A stretch of DNA of 43,932 bases, taken from NCBI GenBank assembly GCA_019429045.1, contig JAHYJL010000005.1, forward strand, positions 1-43,932. Reading direction: 5' to 3'. Position numbers and translations under genes: made by a program. The DNA is from Bacteroidales bacterium. Its GTDB lineage: Bacteria > Bacteroidota > Bacteroidia > Bacteroidales > JAGOPY01. The notes beneath the pieces are model-generated. The model was not told the origin of the DNA, ran no database searches, and was given only the letters and a program-made list of their open reading frames with translations. Each line of letters begins with the position of its first letter. Within the stretch, counting starts at the first letter, position 1. Below, piece by piece: positions 2,507-16,963 of this stretch.

Positions 2507-4045
2507 TCAGGGATGAACGGCCCAATCGGGCAATGCGAGCCCGGCATGGCCGAATACGACGCTGACCATAAAATAGGTAAATGCCGTGATGATAATGGCT
2601 CCTGCCAGGTTCAGCAGCAGGCCCGTCCGGGCCATATCCGAGACGGTAATGCGGTCGGTGCCGAAAATGATCGCATTCGGCGGGGTAGCCACCGGCAGCA
2701 TGAAAGCCATCGAGGCCGACAAAGTGGCGGGCAGCATCAGGTATAAGGGGTTGATCTCCAGTGAAACCGACAGGCCTGCCAGGATTGGTAAAAGCATCTC
2801 AATGGTGGCCGTGTTGGAAGTCAGCTCGGTCAGGAACGTCACCATCAGGCAGATCATCAGGATGATCACAAAGGGATGGAGTCCCGACAGCCATGTCATC
2901 TGCTCGCCGAACCAGGTGGAAAGCCCCGATTCCTTGAAACCGCTGGCCAGGGCAAAACCACCCCCGAAAAGGAGCACGATATGCCATGGGATGCGGGTGG
3001 CCGTCTCCCAGTTAACGATCCTTTTCCCTTTTTCGCTGCGGGATGGGATGAAAAAGAGCATCACCGACATCATAACCGCCACGGTGCCGTCGTTGACATA
3101 TTCTGGGTTTGGAAATAGATTGGCCCAGCCGGGAATGACCAGGTTGCCGAAAACCAGGTCCGACCGGGTTAACCATAATACTGCCAGCATAATAAAATCG
3201 GCAAATATGATTTTCTCCTCAAATGAAAACGGGCCCAGGGCCTGGTATTGTTTCCGGAAGATCTCTTTCTCCAGACCAAGCCAGTGACTCCTGTCCGGCC
3301 TGAACCTGAAGTAAAGGAATGCCCAGGTAAAAAGGAAGAATATTGCTGTTATAGGAAAAGCGAAAAGAAACCAGGTGGCAAAGCTGATCTCCGGGGCGTG
3401 CGGGAACATGATATGAAAGATCCGGGCAAAGGAAAGATTGGGCGGGGTCCCCACCAGGGTGGCAATGCCGCCGATGGAAGCGCTGTATGCCACTCCCAGC
3501 ATCAGCCCGATGGAGAACTTGCGAATCACTCGGCTGTCGATGCTCTCTTCCAGTTTTTGCATGACCGATAGCAGGATGGGGATCATCATCATAGCTGTAG
3601 CCGTATTGGATATCCACATCGACAAAAAAGCCGTTGCCAGCATAAACCCGAGCAAAATACTGGCCGGCCTGGCCCCGGTGAACATCAGGATGCGCAGGGC
3701 GATCCTTTTGTGCAGGTTCCATTTTTGCATGGCCAGCGCCACCAGGAAGCCGCCGATAAAGAGAAAGATGACATGATTGAAATATGTCGCCGATACATCC
3801 TTGCCGTCCATAATGCCCAGCAACGGGAACAGAACGATCGGAACCAGGGCTGTGGCTGCCAAAGGAATGATCTCCGTGATCCACCAGGCGGCCATCAGCA
3901 AGCCTACGGCCAGGGTGCGGGTAACGGCCGGGTTACCAGGATCCAGATCGGTGAAAAAGACCAGCCAGATGAAAATGGCCGGAGCCATAACAAACCCGGT
4001 GATTTGACGTATTGTTAAATGTTTAACGATTTGCAAGGGGCTCAT
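2507..4045 (-). CDS. SLC13 (DASS) family sodium/dicarboxylate or sulfate symporter
   Basis: This 512-residue integral membrane protein is predicted to import dicarboxylates (succinate, malate, fumarate) or another anion with Na+. It has both SNT signatures of the family, at residues 146-148 (SNTATAMMMIP) and 410-412 (SNTATIEMLLP). It also has WWITEIIPLAATAL near residue 54 and GTPPN near 199. It is the first gene of the minus-strand transporter run and lies back to back with carbamate kinase across a 106-bp intergenic region. The ATG at 4045 gives a normal N-terminus. The SNT motifs bind Na+ and substrate in this family; the exact anion is not predictable here. Confidence 0.92.
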   Translation of the reverse strand: MSPLQIVKHLTIRQITGFVMAPAIFIWLVFFTDLDPGNPAVTRTLAVGLLMAAWWITEIIPLAATALVPIVLFPLLGIMDGKDVSATYFNHVIFLFIGGFLVALAMQKWNLHKRIALRILMFTGARPASILLGFMLATAFLSMWISNTATAMMMIPILLSVMQKLEESIDSRVIRKFSIGLMLGVAYSASIGGIATLVGTPPNLSFARIFHIMFPHAPEISFATWFLFAFPITAIFFLFTWAFLYFRFRPDRSHWLGLEKEIFRKQYQALGPFSFEEKIIFADFIMLAVLWLTRSDLVFGNLVIPGWANLFPNPEYVNDGTVAVMMSVMLFFIPSRSEKGKRIVNWETATRIPWHIVLLFGGGFALASGFKESGLSTWFGEQMTWLSGLHPFVIILMICLMVTFLTELTSNTATIEMLLPILAGLSVSLEINPLYLMLPATLSASMAFMLPVATPPNAIIFGTDRITVSDMARTGLLLNLAGAIIITAFTYFMVSVVFGHAGLALPDWAVHP

Positions 4046-5164: not shown

Positions 5165-6166
5165 ATGGCTTTCAATATACGTAACCGCAGTTTTCTGAGG
5201 CTCCTGGATTTCACGCCGCAGGAGATTGATTTTTTGCTGAAACTGTCGGCTGACCTGAAAAAGGCTAAATATGCCGGCACGGAGCAGCAGCGCTTAAGAG
5301 GCAAGAATATCGTTTTGCTTTTTGAGAAGGATTCCACCCGGACGCGCTGCGCGTTTGAAGTGGCCGCCTTTGACCAGGGGGCGAATGTCACCTACCTGGG
5401 ACCTTCCGGGTCGCAGCTGAAGAAAAAAGAAACCGTGAAAGATACGGCAAGGGTGCTGGGCCGGATGTACGACGGCATCGAATACCGGGGATACGGCCAG
5501 GATATTGTCGAAGAACTGGCCAAATACGCCAATGTACCGGTATGGAACGGCCTTACCAATGAATTCCATCCCACACAGGTGCTGGCCGATTTGCTGACCA
5601 TGCAGGAGAACAGCGCTAAACCGCTCCGCGACATCGCCTTCAGTTATTTGGGAGATGCCCGCAACAACATGGGGAATTCATTGCTGGTCGGCGCGGCCAA
5701 GATGGGAATGGACTTCCGTTCTATCGCACCGAAACAATTCCAGCCCGCACCGGAACTGGTTGCTGCCTGCCGCGAGATTGCCAAAGAAACCGGCGCCCGC
5801 CTTACCATTACCGATGATCCGGCGGCAGGGGTTAAGGGGGTCGATTTTATTCATACCGATGTCTGGGTTTCCATGGGAGAACCGGATGAAGCCTGGAAAG
5901 AAAGGCTGCAACTGATGCTGCCGTACCAGGTGAACAGCGCACTGATGAAAAAGACAGGTAACCCGGATGTGAAGTTCATGCATTGCCTGCCCTCGTTCCA
6001 CAACAGGAATACGACGATAGGGGAGGATATCTACAGGAAATTTGGCGTGACCGAAATGGAAGTGACCGATGAGGTTTTCGAATCCCCGGCCTCGATTGTT
6101 TTCGACCAGGCCGAAAACCGCCTCCATACTATCAAAGCAGTAATGGTCGCCACCCTCGGCAACTAA
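5165..6166 (+). CDS. argF: Ornithine carbamoyltransferase
   Basis: This 333-residue protein transfers carbamoyl between ornithine and phosphate. The carbamoyl-phosphate loop STRTRCAFE is at residues 57-65, FHPTQ at 134-138, DVWVSMGE at 232-239 and the ornithine-site HCLPSFHNR at 273-281 (usually HCLPAFHNR). Length and sequence match the classical OTCase, distinct from the N-acetylornithine enzyme found in many Bacteroidota. Pairing with carbamate kinase favours a catabolic (arcB-like) role in citrulline fermentation, but an anabolic role is not excluded. Its 3' end overlaps the convergent rex gene by 4 bp. Confidence 0.95.
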
Positions 6167-6783
6167 TCACTTTTCACATAAAACGCCACCTTCTCCAGCG
6201 AGGTGATCATGTCGTATTCCTCCAGGTGGACATCCCTGGGAACCAGCACTGACTTTGGCGCATAATTCAGGATACCATTGATCCCGGCTTTTACCAGTCT
6301 GTCGGCTGTGATTTGCGCCTGGTCGGCCGGTACAGTGATGATGCCGACCTTAATGTCTTCCTGCCTGATTACCTCGTCCAGCTCAGCAATATCGTGACAG
6401 GGTATCCCTGAATACTTCTTGCCTACTTTGTCGGCATTACTGTCGAAAACGGCAACGATCGAAAGCTTGGTCCGCTTGCCGCTGAAATAGTTGATGATGG
6501 CCCTTCCCAGATTCCCGACGCCGACCACGCAAACCCTGATCATGGTGTCACTGTCGATAATATCCCCGATCAGGTCAATCAGCTCCTTGACGTTATATCC
6601 TTTGCGCAATGTGCCTGTATAACCGATCAGCATGATATCGCGCCTGACCTGTACGGGTGTGATGTGGATGATTTTGGCGATCTCGTGGGAAAAAATATGT
6701 GTTTTGTCACTGTCGTGCACCATCAGCAATGCCCTGCGATACTGACTCAACCGCTCAATGGTTTTATGGGGAGGTGTTCTCAT
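6163..6783 (-). CDS. rex: Redox-sensing transcriptional repressor Rex
   Basis: This 206-residue protein has an N-terminal winged helix (about 1-78, with the typical TPVQVRRD at 42-49) and a C-terminal Rossmann domain. The dinucleotide-binding VGVGNLGRA is at 87-95. The Rex family binds DNA when NAD+ is high and lets go when NADH rises. Usual length is about 210. A perfect TTGTTAA-N4-TTAACAA box lies 67-84 bp upstream of the start, so it probably regulates itself. A second near-match at the formate dehydrogenase promoter suggests one target. Convergent with argF. Confidence 0.95.
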
Positions 6784-6849
6784 GCTGTGAAATTATGTCT
6801 GTGCTTCAGCGTACAAAAATAATTTCACAATTGTTAAAAAGCAAGTCTT

Positions 6850-6867
6850 TTGTTAATTATTTAACAA
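6850..6867. promoter_or_regulatory. Rex-type operator upstream of rex
   Basis: TTGTTAATTATTTAACAA is a perfect inverted repeat (7-4-7). It fits the known Rex box TTGTGAA-N4-TTCACAA with T in place of G in each half. It lies in the leader/promoter region of the divergently reading rex gene. A TTTCACAATTGTTAAA stretch at 6822-6837 contains two more half-sites in outward arrangement. Confidence 0.7.
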
Positions 6868-6947
6868 TTAAAGCAGTTAACTATGCCTATAAAGGGGACT
6901 AAACGAGGGAATGGGTGATTTGTGGATATGATCGTAATAAGGTAATT

Positions 6948-7695: not shown

Positions 7696-8112
7696 ATGGA
7701 AAAGCAGGTTATACTTCAGGTAAAATGTCCGCACTGCGGGCATTCATTTATGGATCCTGATCACGAGGTAAATGGTCAACCGGGCATTAAAATAGATATT
7801 GAATCAGAAAGCGGAAAAGGATTCCTTTGGTTATGTCCCATCTATGGTTGTTTTTTGCATGAAAGCGACATTACATTAAAAGAAAATGAAGTGATCAGGT
7901 TCAATTGCCCGCATTGCCATAATACACTCGCAAGAGATGTGCTTTGCAAAACCTGCAATGCACCCATGGTTGGATTTAATATTAATGTAGGGGGTAAGGT
8001 TAATGTCTGCTCGCGCAAGGGATGCCAGAAACATTATATCCTTTTTGAGGATGCCAATGACCTCATCAATTTATTCTATGAGAAATTTGAGCCCAGGGAT
8101 CTATATATGTGA
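7696..8112 (+). CDS. Cysteine-rich zinc-ribbon protein, function unknown
   Basis: This 138-residue soluble protein is built around cysteine pairs: CPHCGH near residue 12, CPIYGC near 51, CPHCHNTL near 75, CKTC near 88 and CSRKGC near 107. These would make two or three zinc ribbons. No signal peptide, membrane helix or enzymatic motif is visible. I do not recognise a named family. It lies tail to tail (1 bp apart) with a rubrerythrin-like gene, which may hint at redox or metal stress but proves nothing. Confidence 0.7.
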   Translation: MEKQVILQVKCPHCGHSFMDPDHEVNGQPGIKIDIESESGKGFLWLCPIYGCFLHESDITLKENEVIRFNCPHCHNTLARDVLCKTCNAPMVGFNINVGGKVNVCSRKGCQKHYILFEDANDLINLFYEKFEPRDLYM

Positions 8113-8723: not shown

Positions 8724-8762
8724 CCTTGCAGATCCGTGTTGTTGCCCGTTTCTGTATTTTAC

Positions 8763-8857
8763 AGAGAGAACGGAACTGGTGTTTCGCCCGGTCTTCAAAA
8801 CCGGCAGCAGACGGATAAAACCGGCTGTGGCAGGTTCGATTCCTGCTCTCTCTGCCA
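8763..8857 (+). tRNA. selC: tRNA-Sec (anticodon UCA)
   Basis: This 95-nt tRNA reads UGA as selenocysteine. The anticodon TCA is at 8795-8797 in the loop CTTCAAA, on a stem CCGGT/ACCGG. The D arm has the 6-bp stem CGGAAC/GTTTCG with a TGGT tetraloop, a tRNA-Sec hallmark. A long variable arm (CAGC..GCTG plus CGG/CCG) spans 8805-8827. The T arm is GCAGG TTCGATT CCTGC. The acceptor AGAGAGA/TCTCTCT is followed by G and an encoded CCA (8855-8857). Counted this way the acceptor has 7 bp, where 8 is usual. Pairing C8762 with G8854 would give 8 bp but lose the G discriminator. Confidence 0.96.
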
Positions 8858-8890
8858 ATTCATGGATATGCATTTTGTCTGTTGCAGGTT

Positions 8891-10324
8891 ATGAGTGATC
8901 ACAAGGAGGTTTTCAGGAACCTTCCCGGCGTTGATAGGCTGCTGGCGTCGCCAGATTTGCTTCCGCTGCTTGCTGTTTATGGCAAGGAGTTGCTGACCTA
9001 TGCCATCAGGCTGGCGCTGGATGGTTTCAGGCAACAGATCATATCTCATGCTATCCCTCCGGATCACAATGATATTATTAAAAGGATTACAGCGCTGGTG
9101 CAGTTGTATGGCGGACGGCATCTCAGAAAAGTCTGCAATGCAACCGGGGTTGTCATACATACAAACCTGGGCCGGGCACCGTTCAGCCCCCATATGCTGA
9201 ATGATTCTTTTAGCGTATTGCAGGGCTATAACAATCTTGAGTTTAACCTGGAAACGGGATTGCGGGGAAACAGAAATGACCATGCATCGGCTATCCTTAA
9301 ATACCTTACCGGAGCCGGGGATATACTGGTCGTGAATAACAACGCCGCTGCAGTCATGATGATATTAAGGTCCTTTGCCAAAGGCAGGGAAGTTATCGTT
9401 TCAAGGGGCGAACTGATCGAAATAGGAGGGTCTTTTCGCATACCCGAAATCATGGCCGCATCGGACTGTAACATGGTGGAAGTCGGCACTACCAATAAAA
9501 CCAGGATAAGTGATTACAGGAAAGCGGTCAATAAGCATACTGCACTATTATTCAAGACACATAAATCAAATTATGTTATCAGGGGTTTTACGGAAGAAGT
9601 CAGTCTTGATGAATTGGTAGTTCTTGGCCGTGAGTTGAATATTCCCGTTTTATTCGATCTGGGATCAGGTTTGTTGAAGAAGATAGCCCATCCCGCCTTT
9701 GAACAGGAACCTGATGTTAGAGAAGCGCTGGCCTCAGGTGCTGATCTGGTGTGTTTCAGCGGGGATAAATTACTCGGCGGCCCACAGGCAGGAATCATTG
9801 CCGGTAAAAAACAACTGATCGATAAGCTGAAGAAAGAACCCATGCTGCGCGCATTGAGGGTTTGCAAGACAACACTGGTCTTGCTCGAGACGGCATGTTC
9901 TTATTACCTGAACGAAGAAGAACTGCATTTCAGGAATATTATTTTTAAAGCTTTTTACCGGGAAAATTCAGAATTATTTCATTCAGCAGAAACCATGAAA
10001 TCAGTTTTATCTGATAATGGTATAATCGCCCGGGTAATTGATTCCCCTGGTCAATGTGGCGGCGGTACCCTGCCCGATGCAACCATTGATAGCTATGCTG
10101 TTATCATTCAATACGGGAAAAACAACAAGGAGAGATCCGATTATGCCGAAAGGATGTACCGGGGATTACTGGAACATGAAACACCTGTTTTAGGTATCCT
10201 CCGACAAGGGAATATCCTGTTCAACATACTTACCCTCGATCCTGATGAGATTCCAGTTGTAAGCAAGGTTATTGCGGAGGTCAATGAAGTTGTCCTGAGA
10301 GAGATTGCCACAGCTTCGGCCTGA
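8891..10324 (+). CDS. selA: L-seryl-tRNA(Sec) selenium transferase
   Basis: This 477-residue PLP enzyme converts Ser-tRNA(Sec) to Sec-tRNA(Sec) with selenophosphate. Family motifs: NLPGVDRLL near the start, NATG at 83-86 and TNLGRA at 91-96, SRGELIEIGGSFRIPEIM from 171, and FSGDKLLGGPQAGII with the PLP lysine at K293. Length is typical (about 465). The ATG at 8891 is preferred over a TTG three codons earlier. It lies 33 bp after tRNA-Sec and 50 bp before selB, a compact selenocysteine cluster. Confidence 0.97.
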   Translation: MSDHKEVFRNLPGVDRLLASPDLLPLLAVYGKELLTYAIRLALDGFRQQIISHAIPPDHNDIIKRITALVQLYGGRHLRKVCNATGVVIHTNLGRAPFSPHMLNDSFSVLQGYNNLEFNLETGLRGNRNDHASAILKYLTGAGDILVVNNNAAAVMMILRSFAKGREVIVSRGELIEIGGSFRIPEIMAASDCNMVEVGTTNKTRISDYRKAVNKHTALLFKTHKSNYVIRGFTEEVSLDELVVLGRELNIPVLFDLGSGLLKKIAHPAFEQEPDVREALASGADLVCFSGDKLLGGPQAGIIAGKKQLIDKLKKEPMLRALRVCKTTLVLLETACSYYLNEEELHFRNIIFKAFYRENSELFHSAETMKSVLSDNGIIARVIDSPGQCGGGTLPDATIDSYAVIIQYGKNNKERSDYAERMYRGLLEHETPVLGILRQGNILFNILTLDPDEIPVVSKVIAEVNEVVLREIATASA

Positions 10325-10374: not shown

Positions 10375-12348
10375 ATGGAAAAACACCTAATCATAGGCAC
10401 GGCAGGTCACATCGATCACGGAAAAACAGCCTTGATCAAAATGCTGACCGATATAGACTGCGATACCCATAAGGAGGAAAAACAAAGAGGGATCACAATC
10501 AACCTGGGCTTTTCATATTTAAACCTTCCGGGAGGAGAATCGATTGGCATCATTGATGTACCGGGGCACAGGGATTTTATCAATACGATGATCGGCGGCG
10601 CCTGCGGTATCGATATGGTATTGCTTGTAATCGCAGCCGACAGCGGGATCATGCCCCAGACAAAGGAGCACCTGAATATCATTTCTGCACTCGGAATTTC
10701 GAAAGGCGTGGTTGCACTCACTAAGGCTGACCTGGTGGATGAGGAACTGCTTGAAATGGCAGAATTTGAAATTTCCGGCTTTCTCTCGGATACACAATTG
10801 ATAGACGCACCGGTGATTCGTGTCTCCGCCATCACCGGCATGGGTAGAAACGAATTGATCGGTGCTATCGCGGATGTAATTACAGGAATAAAAGAAAAAG
10901 AGTCCGGAAACCTTTTCCGGATGTATATCGACAGGATCTTTTCCGTAAAGGGTTTTGGAAGCGTAGTGACAGGCTCTGTGATGAGTGGCAGTCTTTCAGC
11001 CGGACAAGATGTGTACCTGCTTCCGGCCAACAAGCAGAAACTGAGAGTGCGCTCACTGGAAAGGCACGGGCAGAGCGTTGATCAAGTAGTGGCGGGCGAC
11101 AGGGCAGCCGTTAATCTTATCGGTTTGAAAACAGATGATTTCGAAAGGGGTATGATCATCTGTGATAAACCACTGGATTCGGTGAATATGATTGATGCCT
11201 TTGTGCATCTTTTTGATACCGATATCACACTGCCGGTCTGGTCCAATATTATTTTTGTTTCCGGTACCTTTGAATGCCAGGCCCGCATGCACCTGCTGAA
11301 CAAGGATCAGGTGAATGGGAATGAGGACGCCATTGTCCAGATACATCTCAGTAAACAGGCCATGCTGATGAGCAAAGATAAGTTCATTATCCGCAATTCA
11401 TCGGAGGATAGAACCCTGGGAGGCGGTTATATCATTGAAACTTCCCCTTTGCATCATCGCAAACGTACCCCAAAACTCATCGAGGAATTGACCCGGCTTA
11501 GCCAGAGCATCCTGGGCGAAAACAGCATACGTGAAATGATCAGGCTGCTGTTGAAAAAGGAATTCAGGCCATTTACCCCAGAAGAAATCGCCGACAGATT
11601 AAGCCTGAAACCAGGTGAGATATTTGAACAATTGGAGATCCCCGGTTCCGGTTTTATTTTCTATAAATCCGGACTGGTAAGTATTCTTGTATCTGACCAT
11701 TATGATGCAACGCTTAGAAATAAGATCATTCAAGTACTTGCAGATCATCACTCAAAAAACCCCTTGTTTGCAGAAGGGCTGGATTCAGGTGAAATTACGG
11801 GTAAACTGGGATTGACTAAAACACCCGATAGCAAACCATACCTGGAGATATTGCTTAAAAGTATGCAAAGGGAAGAACAGCTTGATTTTGTCAAAAATAC
11901 ATGGGTAATAAAAGGCCACCAGCCACAATTTGATGCACAGAGCCTTTCGGAGATTGAATGGTTGGAGCACGAAATTCTGAACTATGGCGAAGGCAAGCCG
12001 GTGCTTGCTGAACTGGAAGAAAAAGCCGCAATTCACAATATTCAGAAACGTAAGATAAAAACATATTTGTCCTATCTGGCTGGCCAGGGAAAAATTCAAT
12101 TCTGTAAATCCGATTTTATTCATACGGATATTCTAAAAAAATACCGTGCTATTGTGCTAAGCCACCTGGCTCATAAGGAAAACGGGATCGAAATTCAGGA
12201 GTTTAAGGAATTGCTATCTGGGACCAAACGTTTCCGTGCACTGTTGATCGACATGTTTGAAACTGAAAAAATCATCAAACTGGTCAGCGGCCAGAGTGTG
12301 GAAACCCGATTGTATATTACCCCGAAAGGGATAAACATTATTATTTAG
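10375..12348 (+). CDS. selB: Selenocysteine-specific elongation factor SelB
   Basis: This 657-residue GTPase delivers Sec-tRNA(Sec) to UGA codons marked by a SECIS hairpin. The GTP-binding motifs are GHIDHGKT (11-18), DVPGH (61-65) and TKAD (116-119). EF-Tu-like domains II and III follow (VKGFGSVVTGSV near 200). The C-terminal half has the winged-helix repeats that bind SECIS RNA in bacteria. Length matches bacterial SelB (about 610-660). Its presence beside selA and tRNA-Sec supports reading the TGA in the next gene as Sec. Confidence 0.97.
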   Translation: MEKHLIIGTAGHIDHGKTALIKMLTDIDCDTHKEEKQRGITINLGFSYLNLPGGESIGIIDVPGHRDFINTMIGGACGIDMVLLVIAADSGIMPQTKEHLNIISALGISKGVVALTKADLVDEELLEMAEFEISGFLSDTQLIDAPVIRVSAITGMGRNELIGAIADVITGIKEKESGNLFRMYIDRIFSVKGFGSVVTGSVMSGSLSAGQDVYLLPANKQKLRVRSLERHGQSVDQVVAGDRAAVNLIGLKTDDFERGMIICDKPLDSVNMIDAFVHLFDTDITLPVWSNIIFVSGTFECQARMHLLNKDQVNGNEDAIVQIHLSKQAMLMSKDKFIIRNSSEDRTLGGGYIIETSPLHHRKRTPKLIEELTRLSQSILGENSIREMIRLLLKKEFRPFTPEEIADRLSLKPGEIFEQLEIPGSGFIFYKSGLVSILVSDHYDATLRNKIIQVLADHHSKNPLFAEGLDSGEITGKLGLTKTPDSKPYLEILLKSMQREEQLDFVKNTWVIKGHQPQFDAQSLSEIEWLEHEILNYGEGKPVLAELEEKAAIHNIQKRKIKTYLSYLAGQGKIQFCKSDFIHTDILKKYRAIVLSHLAHKENGIEIQEFKELLSGTKRFRALLIDMFETEKIIKLVSGQSVETRLYITPKGINIII

Positions 12349-12376
12349 ACTAATTTCAAATTGTCAATTTTCGACG

Positions 12377-12395
12377 CAACCGAAAGCAATGGTTG
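12377..12395. other. Weak hairpin after selB
   Basis: CAACC (12377-12381) pairs with GGTTG (12391-12395), followed by TTTAT. It could be a weak terminator for selB or just part of the fdhA promoter region, since it overlaps the possible -33 element. Confidence 0.25.
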
Positions 12396-12424
12396 TTTAT
12401 CTTACATTTAGTTTTATATTTTTG
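12393..12424 (+). promoter_or_regulatory. Promoter of the formate dehydrogenase operon
   Basis: The -7 box TATTTTTG (12417-12424) matches TAnnTTTG, and a TTG at 12393-12395 lies 21 bp upstream. Transcription would begin around 12430, inside the Rex-like box that directly follows. The ATG is 63 bp downstream of the -7 box. Confidence 0.6.
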
Positions 12425-12442
12425 TTGCTAAATTTTTCACAA
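12425..12442. promoter_or_regulatory. Candidate Rex operator at the fdhA transcription start
   Basis: TTGCTAAATTTTTCACAA fits TTGTGAA-N4-TTCACAA with a perfect right half and two differences in the left half (C and T for T and G). The T for G change also occurs in the box upstream of rex. It abuts the -7 box, so bound Rex would block transcription. A small hairpin CAATGC-AAAA-GCATTG (12440-12455) overlaps its right edge. Confidence 0.6.
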
Positions 12443-12487: not shown

Positions 12488-15202
12488 ATGGAAAGTACAT
12501 TTAAAATTTACATTAACGGAAAAGCCCTCGAAACTTCAGCCGGCAAGACGGTGTTGGATGTTGCGCGGGAGCACGATATTTATATACCGACCCTGTGCCA
12601 TCATCCCCGTACGGGAAAAGCCGGGAAATGCCGTGCCTGTCTTGTGGAGGTGGAAGGACTTCGCGGCCTGAAAGAAAGCTGCGCCCTGGAGGTTAGAGAC
12701 GGCATGTCAGTGAAAACCCATACCGAACAAATACAGGAAGTCCGTAAAATGATCGTTGAACTGCTCCTGTCCAATGGTGAACACAATTGTATCGCCTGTG
12801 AAAAGAATGGTCACTGCGAGCTGCAGGACATGGCTTATCATCTTGGGATTGAACGCCCGGGCTATCTGCTGGATTATGAAAGGATTACCCTGGATGAGTC
12901 ATCGGAAGGGATCATCAGGGATGCCAACAAATGCATCGAGTGCGGCAGGTGTATAAAATCATGTAACAATAATGTCATGCACGAGGTGCTTGATTTCGGC
13001 TGGCGCTCTGACCATATGCGCGTTATTTGCGACGATGATAAGCCTATGGGCGAATCGACCTGTGTCCAGTGCGGAGAGTGTGTGCAGGTTTGCCCCGTTG
13101 GTGCTTTGACATTTAGATATGCAAAAGGAAAAGGACCATACTGGGAACTGGATAAAACCAAGGTCATCTGCACCTATTGCGGGGTTGGATGCTCCATTGA
13201 TATGTTCACCAAAGACAATAAATTTGTTTATTCTCTGGGGACAGAGGAGAATTGGCAGGATCAGACAAACAAAGGGATGTTGTGCGTAAAGGGCCGTTTT
13301 GGTTTTGATTTCCTGAACCGTGAAGACCGGCTAGATACACCGCTGATCCGTAAGAACGGCAAGCTGGAAAAAGCCGGCTGGGATGAAGCGCTCGATCTGG
13401 TAGCCTCACGCTTTACAGATATCAAAGCAGAGCATGGCCCTGGATCCATCGGGTTCTTCACATCGGCCAGAATTTCAAATGAAGAGAATTATGCACTGAT
13501 GAGGTTCGCAAGGGGGGTTGTTGGGACCAACAACATCGACCATTGCGCCCGACTTTGACACAGCTCTACGGTTGCGGGACTGGCAATCACGTTAGGTTCA
13601 GGTGCTATGACAAACAGCATGCAGGAAGCCGAAAATTCAGATGTAATTCTTATAACAGGTACGAATACCACATGGAATCACCCGGTATTTGGCGGGATGA
13701 TCAAAAAGGCCGTGATGCAGAAAGGGGTTAAGTTGATTGTTGTCGATCCCCGCGATATCGGCCTGGCTAAATATGCTGACATTCACATGAAGCAAAATCC
13801 GGGCTCTGACAATGCCTGGCTCATGGGGCTGCAGCATATTATTGTAAAGAATAACTGGCATAACAAGGAATTTGTTGAAGAGAAGACTGAAGGTTGGGAA
13901 GAATATCTCCAGAGCCTTGAATTCTACACACCCAAAAAAGTAGAGGAGCTAAGCGGCATTCCCAAAGAACAGCTTTATGAAGCGGCAAAGTTGTATGCCA
14001 CCTCAGGCCGGGGAGCCGCTTATTATGCAATGGGTATCACCCAGCATTCCCACGGAGTTGACAATGTGATGGCCATTTCCAACCTTCAGATGATCCTCGG
14101 GAATTTTGGGCTTCCCGGAACGGGAGTAAATCCCCTTCGCGGCCAGAACAATGTCCAGGGGGCCTGTGATATGGGAGGGCTTCCCAATGTGTTTACTGCG
14201 TATCAGCCTGTAGTAAATGAAGATGCCCGCAAGAAGTTTGCAGAAGCCTGGGATAAAAAGCTGGAGGAAATGGATGACAAGGTGGGGCAAACTGTCACCA
14301 CCATGGTGAAAAATGCGGGTGATTCTATCAAGGCTTTATACATTGTAGGAGAAAACCCCATGATGTCTGATCCCAATCAGAATCATGCGAGAAAACAGAT
14401 GGATAAGCTTGATTTCATCGTCGTGCAGGATATTTTCCTGACGGAAACTGCTGCGATCGCCGATGTTGTCCTGCCGGCCTTTGCCTTTGCTGAAAAATAT
14501 GGTACATTCACGAATACAGAGCGAAGGGTTCAGTTCTCAAATAAAGCTCTTGACGGGCCGGCCGGCGCTAAAAGCGATAATGAGATCATAGCCGCCATTG
14601 CCAGGCGAATGGGGTGTACGGACTTCCCCGAAACGGTAGAGGATTTGTATGCTGAAATCAGGGAGCTCACTCCTTCCTACGCAGGTGTATCTTATGAAAG
14701 GATCAAAGACAGCACGGGCCTTAGGTGGCCCTGCCCGACGGAAGAACACCCGGGGACACCCATTCTGCATGTCGGGAAGTTTGCCAGGGGTAAAGGCCTG
14801 CTGAAAGCCATCGAATACCGGCCCCCCGCGGAATATGCCGATGAGGATTACCCGCTGGTACTAACTACTGGCCGCTTGCTGCAGCATTATCATACGGGAT
14901 CCATGACACGCAGGTCGAAAGTGCTGGAGGGAATCGTGTCGTCTGGCATGATCGAGCTCAATGTTGCCGACGCGGAACACCTTAAGGTAATTAATGGTGA
15001 AAAGGTGAAGGTGTCTTCGCGTCGTGGTTCCATTGAGATAACCGCCCTGGTCACCGATAAGATCAAAGAAGGCATCGTGTTCATACCATTCCATTTTGTC
15101 GAATCAGCCGCTAATATATTGACCAACGATGCGCTTGATCCGGTGGCAAAAATCCCGGAATACAAAGTGTGCGCTGTAAAAGTCGAAAAGATTGCTGAAT
15201 GA
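12488..15202 (+). CDS. fdhA: Selenocysteine formate dehydrogenase, NuoG-like catalytic subunit
   Basis: This 904-residue enzyme oxidises formate to CO2 at a Mo/W bis-MGD centre. It is read through TGA at 13556-13558 as Sec357, in the context CARL-U-HSSTVAGL, which matches CARV-U-HGPSVAGL of E. coli FdhF. Order of domains: [2Fe-2S] plant-type (C37, C48, C51, C65); NuoG-like C101/C104/C110 cluster; two [4Fe-4S] ferredoxin motifs (C149-C159, C192-C202); molybdopterin-domain [4Fe-4S] (C228, C231, C235, C266); molybdopterin oxidoreductase and C-terminal dinucleotide-binding domains. It resembles FdhA/FdhF2 of NAD-linked or bifurcating enzymes. The partner NuoEF-like gene follows after 24 bp. An annotator treating TGA as stop would split it in two. 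Confidence 0.95.
13556..13588 (+). promoter_or_regulatory. Sec UGA codon and SECIS-like hairpin
   Basis: TGA at 13556-13558 is followed, after exactly 11 nt, by GGTTGC (13570-13575) pairing with GCAATC (13583-13588) around the loop GGGACTG. In E. coli fdhF the SelB-binding minihelix likewise starts with GGTTGC 11 nt after UGA. The loop differs from the E. coli loop, and no bulged U is needed in the pairing shown. Part of the similarity may come from the conserved protein sequence. Confidence 0.75.
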
Positions 15203-15226: not shown

Positions 15227-16963
15227 ATGAATGACAATATAAAATCCAGGATACAACAGATCATGGGCCGGTACCCGCGAAAGGAATCGGCGCTGCTGCC
15301 GGCCTTGATGCTTGTTCAGAAAGAAAATGGCAATAACCTGACCAAGGAACTTGTTGCTGAAGTGGCAGATGTAATTGGAGTGTCCCTGTCCCGTGCATTT
15401 GGGGTAGCCACCTATTATTCCATGTTTAATGTCAGCAGGCCGGTGGGGAAATATCACCTGCAGGTAGATACCAATATCCCGGCTACCATCATGGGTGCCG
15501 TTGAAATTTTCAACTACCTGAGTGATAAACTGGGGATTAAACACGGAGAAACCACACCGGACGGCCTGTTTACACTCTCCAAGGTGGAATGTCTGGCATC
15601 TTGCGGTACCTGTCCGGTTATCCAGGTGAATGAACGCTATTATGAGCTGATGACAAAAGAAAAGGTTGACATGCTCATTGATTCGTTGCGCAAGGGGATA
15701 ATGCCCGATCTGCCGGTGGAATACAACTGGGGCACCTTATGCAATGTATTGCTGAAGAATCGCGGAGTAGAAAATGCAAAATCCATTGCTGTTTATAAAC
15801 AGCTCGGCGGGTATAAAACCCTGACCAAAGCCCTCAAAATGAGCCCGGAGGAAATCATCCAGGCGGTAAAGGACTCGCAACTTCGCGGCCGTGGCGGAGC
15901 GGGATTCCCTACCGGGATCAAGTGGGGATTTGTCCCAAAAAATACGGGCAAACCTGTGTACCTGATCTGCAATGCCGATGAAGGCGAGCCCGGAACGTTT
16001 AAAGACAGGCAAATCCTGGCTTATGACCCGCATTTGCTGCTCGAGGGGATGATTATTTCTGCTCATGCACTGGGCTGCAAGCAGGCATTCATTTATATCA
16101 GGGGCGAATTCGGCTGGATAGCAGAAATCCTGGAAAAGGCGATTGACGAGGCAAAGCAGGACGGACAATTGAATGACCTGAGCATCGTGGTACACCGGGG
16201 AGCCGGGTCATATGTTTGCGGAGAAGAAACAGCACTGATCGAATCACTTGAAGGGAAACGCGGACTTCCCCGCATGAAACCCCCTTTCCCTGCTATTGAG
16301 GGACTATACGGTTGCCCGACCATTGTCAATAATGTCGAAACCCTGGCCAGTATTCCCTATATTGTGGAGCACGGAGCGGATGCTTTCAAGCAATGGGGAT
16401 CCAAAGCCGGGTACGGTTTTAAATTATTCGGAGTTTCCGGAGCCGTCAATAAACCAGGTGCTTACGAATGTCCGATGGGGATTTCTTTTGATGAACTCAT
16501 TGAAATGGCCGGCGGCTATAAAGGGAAGATCAAAGGTGTCATCATCGGGGGATTGTCAGTACCTATCGTTACTCCGGAAGAACTAAAAAAAGGCCCGGGG
16601 TTGAAACTGGATTATGAATCTCCGGCAGAATACGGTACAAGCCTTGGCTCGGGCGGCGTGATGGTCATTGGGGAAGAATTTACCATGCCTGAAATCGCGG
16701 CGCGCACGATACAGTTTTATCACCATGAATCATGCGGGCAATGCACACCCTGCCGCCTGGGTTCAACCATGATGACACAACTGCTCGAGAAGATAGCTGA
16801 CGGGAACGGCCAGGAAGGAGATATAGAAAGGGTTCTGTGGCTGTGTAACAATATACGTGGTAACACGCTCTGTCCCACAGGCGAGGCTTACGCCCATCCG
16901 GTGATCACGATGGTTACCAAATTCCGGGATGAGTTTGAGGCAATGATTCCCAAAAAAGCTTAG
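15227..16963 (+). CDS. NuoE-NuoF-like NADH oxidoreductase subunit of formate dehydrogenase
   Basis: This 578-residue fusion passes electrons between formate dehydrogenase and NAD. Residues 1-155 are a NuoE-like thioredoxin fold. The rest is NuoF-like: the FMN/NADH motif GRGGAGFPTG (221-230), ICNADEGEPGTFKDR (247-261), and the [4Fe-4S] ligands C503, C506, C509 and C549 (ESCGQCTPCRLG). In the NuoE part the second ligand pair is kept (C122, C126) but the first is replaced by D81 and A86 in VDTNIPATIMGA, where VCTxxxC is usual. So its [2Fe-2S] cluster may be absent or altered. It follows fdhA by 24 bp, in the same operon. Confidence 0.92.
   Translation: MNDNIKSRIQQIMGRYPRKESALLPALMLVQKENGNNLTKELVAEVADVIGVSLSRAFGVATYYSMFNVSRPVGKYHLQVDTNIPATIMGAVEIFNYLSDKLGIKHGETTPDGLFTLSKVECLASCGTCPVIQVNERYYELMTKEKVDMLIDSLRKGIMPDLPVEYNWGTLCNVLLKNRGVENAKSIAVYKQLGGYKTLTKALKMSPEEIIQAVKDSQLRGRGGAGFPTGIKWGFVPKNTGKPVYLICNADEGEPGTFKDRQILAYDPHLLLEGMIISAHALGCKQAFIYIRGEFGWIAEILEKAIDEAKQDGQLNDLSIVVHRGAGSYVCGEETALIESLEGKRGLPRMKPPFPAIEGLYGCPTIVNNVETLASIPYIVEHGADAFKQWGSKAGYGFKLFGVSGAVNKPGAYECPMGISFDELIEMAGGYKGKIKGVIIGGLSVPIVTPEELKKGPGLKLDYESPAEYGTSLGSGGVMVIGEEFTMPEIAARTIQFYHHESCGQCTPCRLGSTMMTQLLEKIADGNGQEGDIERVLWLCNNIRGNTLCPTGEAYAHPVITMVTKFRDEFEAMIPKKA

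Follow-up and report, generated by a model that had tools for sequence, protein, structure and literature searches.

In the Rex family, the NAD+-bound repressor binds DNA and NADH releases it. The window, that is, the whole stretch of 43,932 nucleotides analysed here, encodes both a Rex protein and a selenocysteine (Sec) formate dehydrogenase, and a palindrome resembling a Rex box is found at the promoter of the latter. This raises the question of whether formate metabolism is controlled by the redox state of the cell. Our analysis indicates that the palindrome at 12425-12442 is likely a Rex operator governing the NAD(H)-linked fdhA operon of this anaerobic Bacteroidales bacterium. Formate metabolism would then probably follow the NADH/NAD+ balance.

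The fdhA promoter and its surroundings

The features concerned are as follows.

6163-6783, minus strand: rex, redox-sensing repressor (NF003995, 209.9 bits, cut-off 126)
6850-6867, minus strand: perfect TTGTTAA-N4-TTAACAA box upstream of rex (motif and matrix scan)
8760-8856, plus strand: tRNA-Sec (ARAGORN)
8882-10324, plus strand: selA (TIGR00474)
10375-12348, plus strand: selB (TIGR00475)
12376-12396, plus strand: terminator-like hairpin 3' of selB (consensus scan, 1 seen against 0.1 expected)
12393-12395, plus strand: -33-type TTG of the putative fdhA promoter (consensus match only), 21 nt 5' of the -7 box
12417-12424, plus strand: -7 box of fdhA, TATTTTTG (6/6 matches to TAnnTTTG)
12425-12442, plus strand: predicted Rex operator, TTGCTAAATTTTTCACAA (17.2 bits, P = 3e-6 per position)
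12488-15202, plus strand: fdhA, Sec formate dehydrogenase alpha subunit (TIGR01591, 813.7 bits, cut-off 666)
15227-16963, plus strand: NuoE-NuoF fusion, NAD(H)/FMN module of the dehydrogenase (NuoE and NuoF domains)

The rex product comprises an N-terminal winged-helix domain (PF06971, 48.5 bits) and an NAD-binding Rossmann domain (PF02629, 83 bits). Its gene lies 5.6 kb from the fdhA box, in agreement with the distance of about 6 kb given in the first-pass annotation. The perfect box that the same annotation had placed in the leader of rex does exist, but it stands just upstream of the -33 and -7 boxes, outside the transcribed leader. Besides this box, the region 6784-6870 contains TTAACAATTGTGAA between the -33 and -7 boxes of rex, which forms two everted Rex half-sites.

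The Sec cassette (tRNA-Sec, selA and selB) sits just 5' of fdhA. As a terminator-like hairpin separates selB from the fdhA promoter, it is probable that fdhA has its own transcript. The candidate operator abuts this promoter, which was assigned by consensus only; 21 nt between the TTG and the -7 box is the usual spacing in Bacteroidota promoters. Sequence inspection confirmed that the palindrome follows the -7 box with zero gap, exactly as first described in both sequence and coordinates, and the start codon of fdhA is at 12488. The Sec codon TGA (13556-13558) is in frame at the metal-ligand position, within the motif HCARLU. A stem with a GGAC-containing loop 3' of this codon folded no better than shuffled sequences. 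The N-terminus of FdhA is NuoG-like, and fdhA is followed by the NuoE-NuoF fusion, an MFS transporter and a MobA-domain protein. These domains predict a soluble formate dehydrogenase of the NAD(H) type, made up of a Sec-containing FdhA and a NuoEF fusion. Anaerobes have similar soluble, NAD(H)-linked enzymes, in which a NuoG-like Fe-S FdhA is combined with an FMN/NAD subunit, although here NuoE and NuoF form a single fused polypeptide.

Compared with TTGTNAA-N4-TTNACAA, the fdhA box has a single mismatch (T4 to C). We scored it with a matrix built from 26 other promoter sites of the same genome, its congener G002 and G014, with the fdhA box excluded. It reached 17.2 bits, and the weakest training site had 17.6 bits. 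Apart from the three boxes at 4012, 6850 and 12425, no position in the window scored above 5.5. The box might nevertheless have arisen by chance or have decayed and lost its function, since its mismatch hits a half-site position at which 26/26 training sites have T. Against this, the probability per position was 3.3e-6 under an AT-rich intergenic model, which means that about 5e-4 such matches are expected in the 139-bp gap between selB and fdhA. A chance match is thus unlikely.

The third box, TTGTTAAATGTTTAACGA at 4012-4029 (17.4 bits), lies where a DASS transporter gene begins, about 120 bp before carbamate kinase.

The motif and Rex across genomes

In the genome to which the window belongs, eight strict sites were found, compared with none in the reversed control; they include sites at rex, korA, mutA, mce, putA, hutH and aspC. 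The 16-bp core gave 21 sites against 0 in the control. When one mismatch was allowed, the counts were 39 in the genome and 8 in the control, and chance would thus explain about one fifth of such sites; this figure also counts in favor of the chance or decay reading of the fdhA box. Strict sites and many of the one-mismatch sites were located in the promoters of rex and of genes for histidine ammonia-lyase, 2-oxoacid:ferredoxin oxidoreductase, methylmalonyl-CoA mutase and epimerase, proline dehydrogenase, an aspartate-type aminotransferase, the cytochrome b of succinate dehydrogenase/fumarate reductase, an ADP-forming-type acyl-CoA synthetase, glycine C-acetyltransferase and malic enzyme. The motif marks a genuine, if predicted, redox and fermentation regulon in this genome. 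The fdhA site would be one of about 20 in this regulon, together with those of 2-oxoacid oxidoreductases, propionate-pathway genes and amino-acid catabolic genes.

Similar gene sets were found in three relatives, where genes were named by BLAST to the regulon of the window or by reading the sequence. In G210, motif sites were located at acdA, frdC, gdhA, mutA, malic enzyme, mce and rex, near an acetate kinase-like gene and at a hydrogenase-type NuoE/F pair. Hydrogenase-type NuoE/F genes also had sites in G335, and malic enzyme, tdh and the fdhA operon had them in G399. The predicted regulon is conserved in all three genomes.

We surveyed 393 genomes of the order, sampled from about 120 families with kinship ignored, and defined own-type Rex by an E-value of at most 1e-50. 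Genomes with own-type Rex had a mean of 1.97 strict sites and those without it 0.38 (Mann-Whitney test, P = 9e-20). Three or more strict sites were present in 43/150 genomes with own-type Rex and in 5/243 others. A looser motif compared with any PF06971 protein in 60 genomes gave no significant association (P = 0.29), a comparison blurred by divergent Rex types and by the loose pattern.

It is conceivable that a regulator of the Crp/Fnr family, which recognizes TGTNA-N6-TNACA, binds the palindrome instead of Rex and controls the whole promoter set. The spacing of the half-sites is identical to that of Crp sites, and a search of the genome showed that it encodes two HTH_Crp_2 proteins. In addition, the two nearest kin, G002 and G001 of the same family, have the motif regulon, with 11 and 5 strict sites, respectively (loci L145-L155), and rex was undetected in either assembly. 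These assemblies are only 76-78% complete and the neighboring OTC gene is missing from both too, so a true absence of rex remains tentative. Other observations favor Rex over Crp/Fnr. Positions 6 and 7 of the half-sites are A and A, as Rex boxes require, in 52/52 and 50/52 cases, and the number of strict sites tracks Rex across the 393 genomes. Moreover, rex itself bears the box in many relatives: it was found upstream of rex at 14/37 rex loci, and also in G399, with a few of the remaining loci out of register and hence unfairly tested. In G210 and G399 the Rex box of the rex promoter likewise directly follows the -7 box.

Conservation of the box before fdhA orthologues

The comparison covered twelve genomes, including that of the window, whose FdhA proteins are close orthologues (69-81% identity to the protein of the window). 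Rex was present in seven of them and undetected in five. Within 300 bp of the start of the operon, top site scores ranged from 9.3 to 17.8 in the seven Rex genomes and from 0.4 to 8.2 in the five others. A Rex-like palindrome was thus found at the fdhA operon promoter in 7/7 genomes with Rex and 0/5 without it (exact P = 0.0013). The operon start was chosen as the reference post hoc, and fixed windows measured from fdhA were therefore added, giving P = 0.005 for 700 bp and P = 0.13 for 300 bp. None of 500 column-shuffled palindromic matrices reached the observed difference. Rex state changes about two times on the FdhA tree, so the 12 genomes are not independent cases, and more weight falls on the retention of the box in deep branches than on the P value. 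The conservation upstream of fdhA relatives that had been proposed as a check of the Rex link was found in the genomes that have Rex.

The placement of the boxes is also shared. In five of the seven Rex genomes, a -7 box with 5/6 or more matches lies 0-2 nt before the start of the Rex-like box, and such placement has a background of 4.9% of positions. Two promoters of G399 agree closely: that of rex is TACTTTTGC-CTGTTAATAAAATAACAA and that of the fdhA operon TAGTTTTGCC-CTGTTAAATAATTAACAG, with nearly identical spelling and the box in the same position. A promoter position common to the boxes of the orthologues and a pattern not reproduced by shuffled matrices both argue against chance or decay, which we consider highly improbable for the fdhA box.

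The boxes of the relatives are frequently weaker or in tandem, and two among the seven Rex genomes are weak (9.3 and 9.8 bits). Some retain only TGTTA-N6-TAACA, with variation in the outer base and position 7, which would suit a Crp/Fnr-type regulator. However, the fdhA box was seen only where Rex was found, and on balance we regard control by a Crp/Fnr protein as improbable. The Rex reading of the fdhA site is favored by a palindrome with one mismatch, a rex gene in the same genome, a position abutting the promoter and conservation among orthologues, as expected of a Rex operator.

A search allowing at most one mismatch found no sites upstream of fdhA orthologues in other families. The impression of a non-conserved box given by that search was overturned by the matrix scan and the use of operon starts. 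For more distant FdhA relatives (38-50% identity), no strong box was found near the gene, which is often close behind other genes. Paired tandem boxes with a 17-bp period occur upstream of fdhA or its operon at L066, L067 and L068, and suggest either that two dimers bind next to each other or that another regulator is involved; a ModE-type site is a further conceivable reading. L067 belongs to Perlabentimonas gracilis, which has Rex.

The first-pass annotation had proposed that the NADH/NAD+ ratio controls a Sec-dependent enzyme. The comparison supports the predicted link between Rex and fdhA, but the link is not specific to Sec. FdhA of G399 and G368 has Cys at the Sec position, and the best-scoring fdhA box belongs to G399, so Rex control would not be tied to selenocysteine. 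The orthologues at L072 and L022 have the Cys codons TGC and TGT where Sec is expected, indicating that Sec/Cys exchange has occurred within the group.

Predicted control of formate metabolism and known Rex regulons

The position of the box suggests how the operon might be controlled. NAD+-bound Rex would sit right after the -7 box, at the expected transcription start, and block RNA polymerase. By analogy with the Rex family, a rise in NADH would release Rex and allow the fdhA operon to be transcribed. With an NAD(H) module as its partner subunit, the enzyme would use the same cofactor as the sensor. It makes little sense to produce a formate oxidizer when NADH is already high, which would point to the CO2-reducing direction. 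The likeliest role, proposed with low certainty, would then be that of an electron valve by which excess reductant and CO2 are converted to formate. A pure NADH-disposal logic is weakened by regulon members that produce reducing equivalents, namely proline dehydrogenase, malic enzyme and the glutamate dehydrogenase of relatives, and the regulon may represent a general switch to fermentation. In its widest form, this idea would place amino-acid and propionate fermentation under Rex as the master switch, through about 20 sites, and would make the Sec-containing, NAD-linked formate dehydrogenase an NADH-triggered valve supplying formate to syntrophic partners. We offer this as a tentative possibility and consider it somewhat doubtful.

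Hydrogenases, 2-oxoacid oxidoreductases and fermentative enzymes are established Rex targets. The Rex regulons of Firmicutes and other anaerobes, with their TTGTGAA/TTGTTAA palindromes, are similar to the present one in repressor family, box, promoter placement and rex autoregulation. The target classes overlap in kor, hydrogenase-type NuoE/F, malic enzyme and acetate formation. The present regulon differs from those of Firmicutes in its Bacteroidota promoter type, in its many genes of amino-acid catabolism and the methylmalonyl-CoA pathway, and in having a Sec-dependent NAD-linked formate dehydrogenase as a predicted target. In the Firmicute Calderihabitans maritimus, a Rex-like motif was predicted before an fdh cluster (PMC7306483). 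Both cases have such a motif before formate dehydrogenase genes and kor in the set. However, the C. maritimus study concerned a periplasmic Fdh and CO-induced genes and used a motif search, whereas here the enzyme is of the soluble NAD(H) type and there is comparative support across families. A literature search, with most subscription papers outside its reach, yielded no description of a Rex regulon from Bacteroidales. Judged from sequence comparison, fdhA is a new predicted target, in Bacteroidales, of a known regulator. This would add to the Rex regulon of the order a formate dehydrogenase with NAD(H) as its own cofactor, and it offers a simple rule: the box is present when Rex is present. 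The rule bears on how fermenting, and possibly syntrophic, Bacteroidales tune their formate and hydrogen output to redox state.

The window also encodes, at 7696-8112 on the plus strand, a 138-aa double zinc-ribbon protein that matches no Pfam family above the cut-off. Four of the seven Rex genomes have a small zinc-ribbon gene at the head of the fdhA operon; homologues of the 138-aa protein occupy this place, right after the Rex-like box, at L068 and L072 and in G335 and G210. It is possible that this double zinc-ribbon protein is an uncharacterised partner of formate dehydrogenase.
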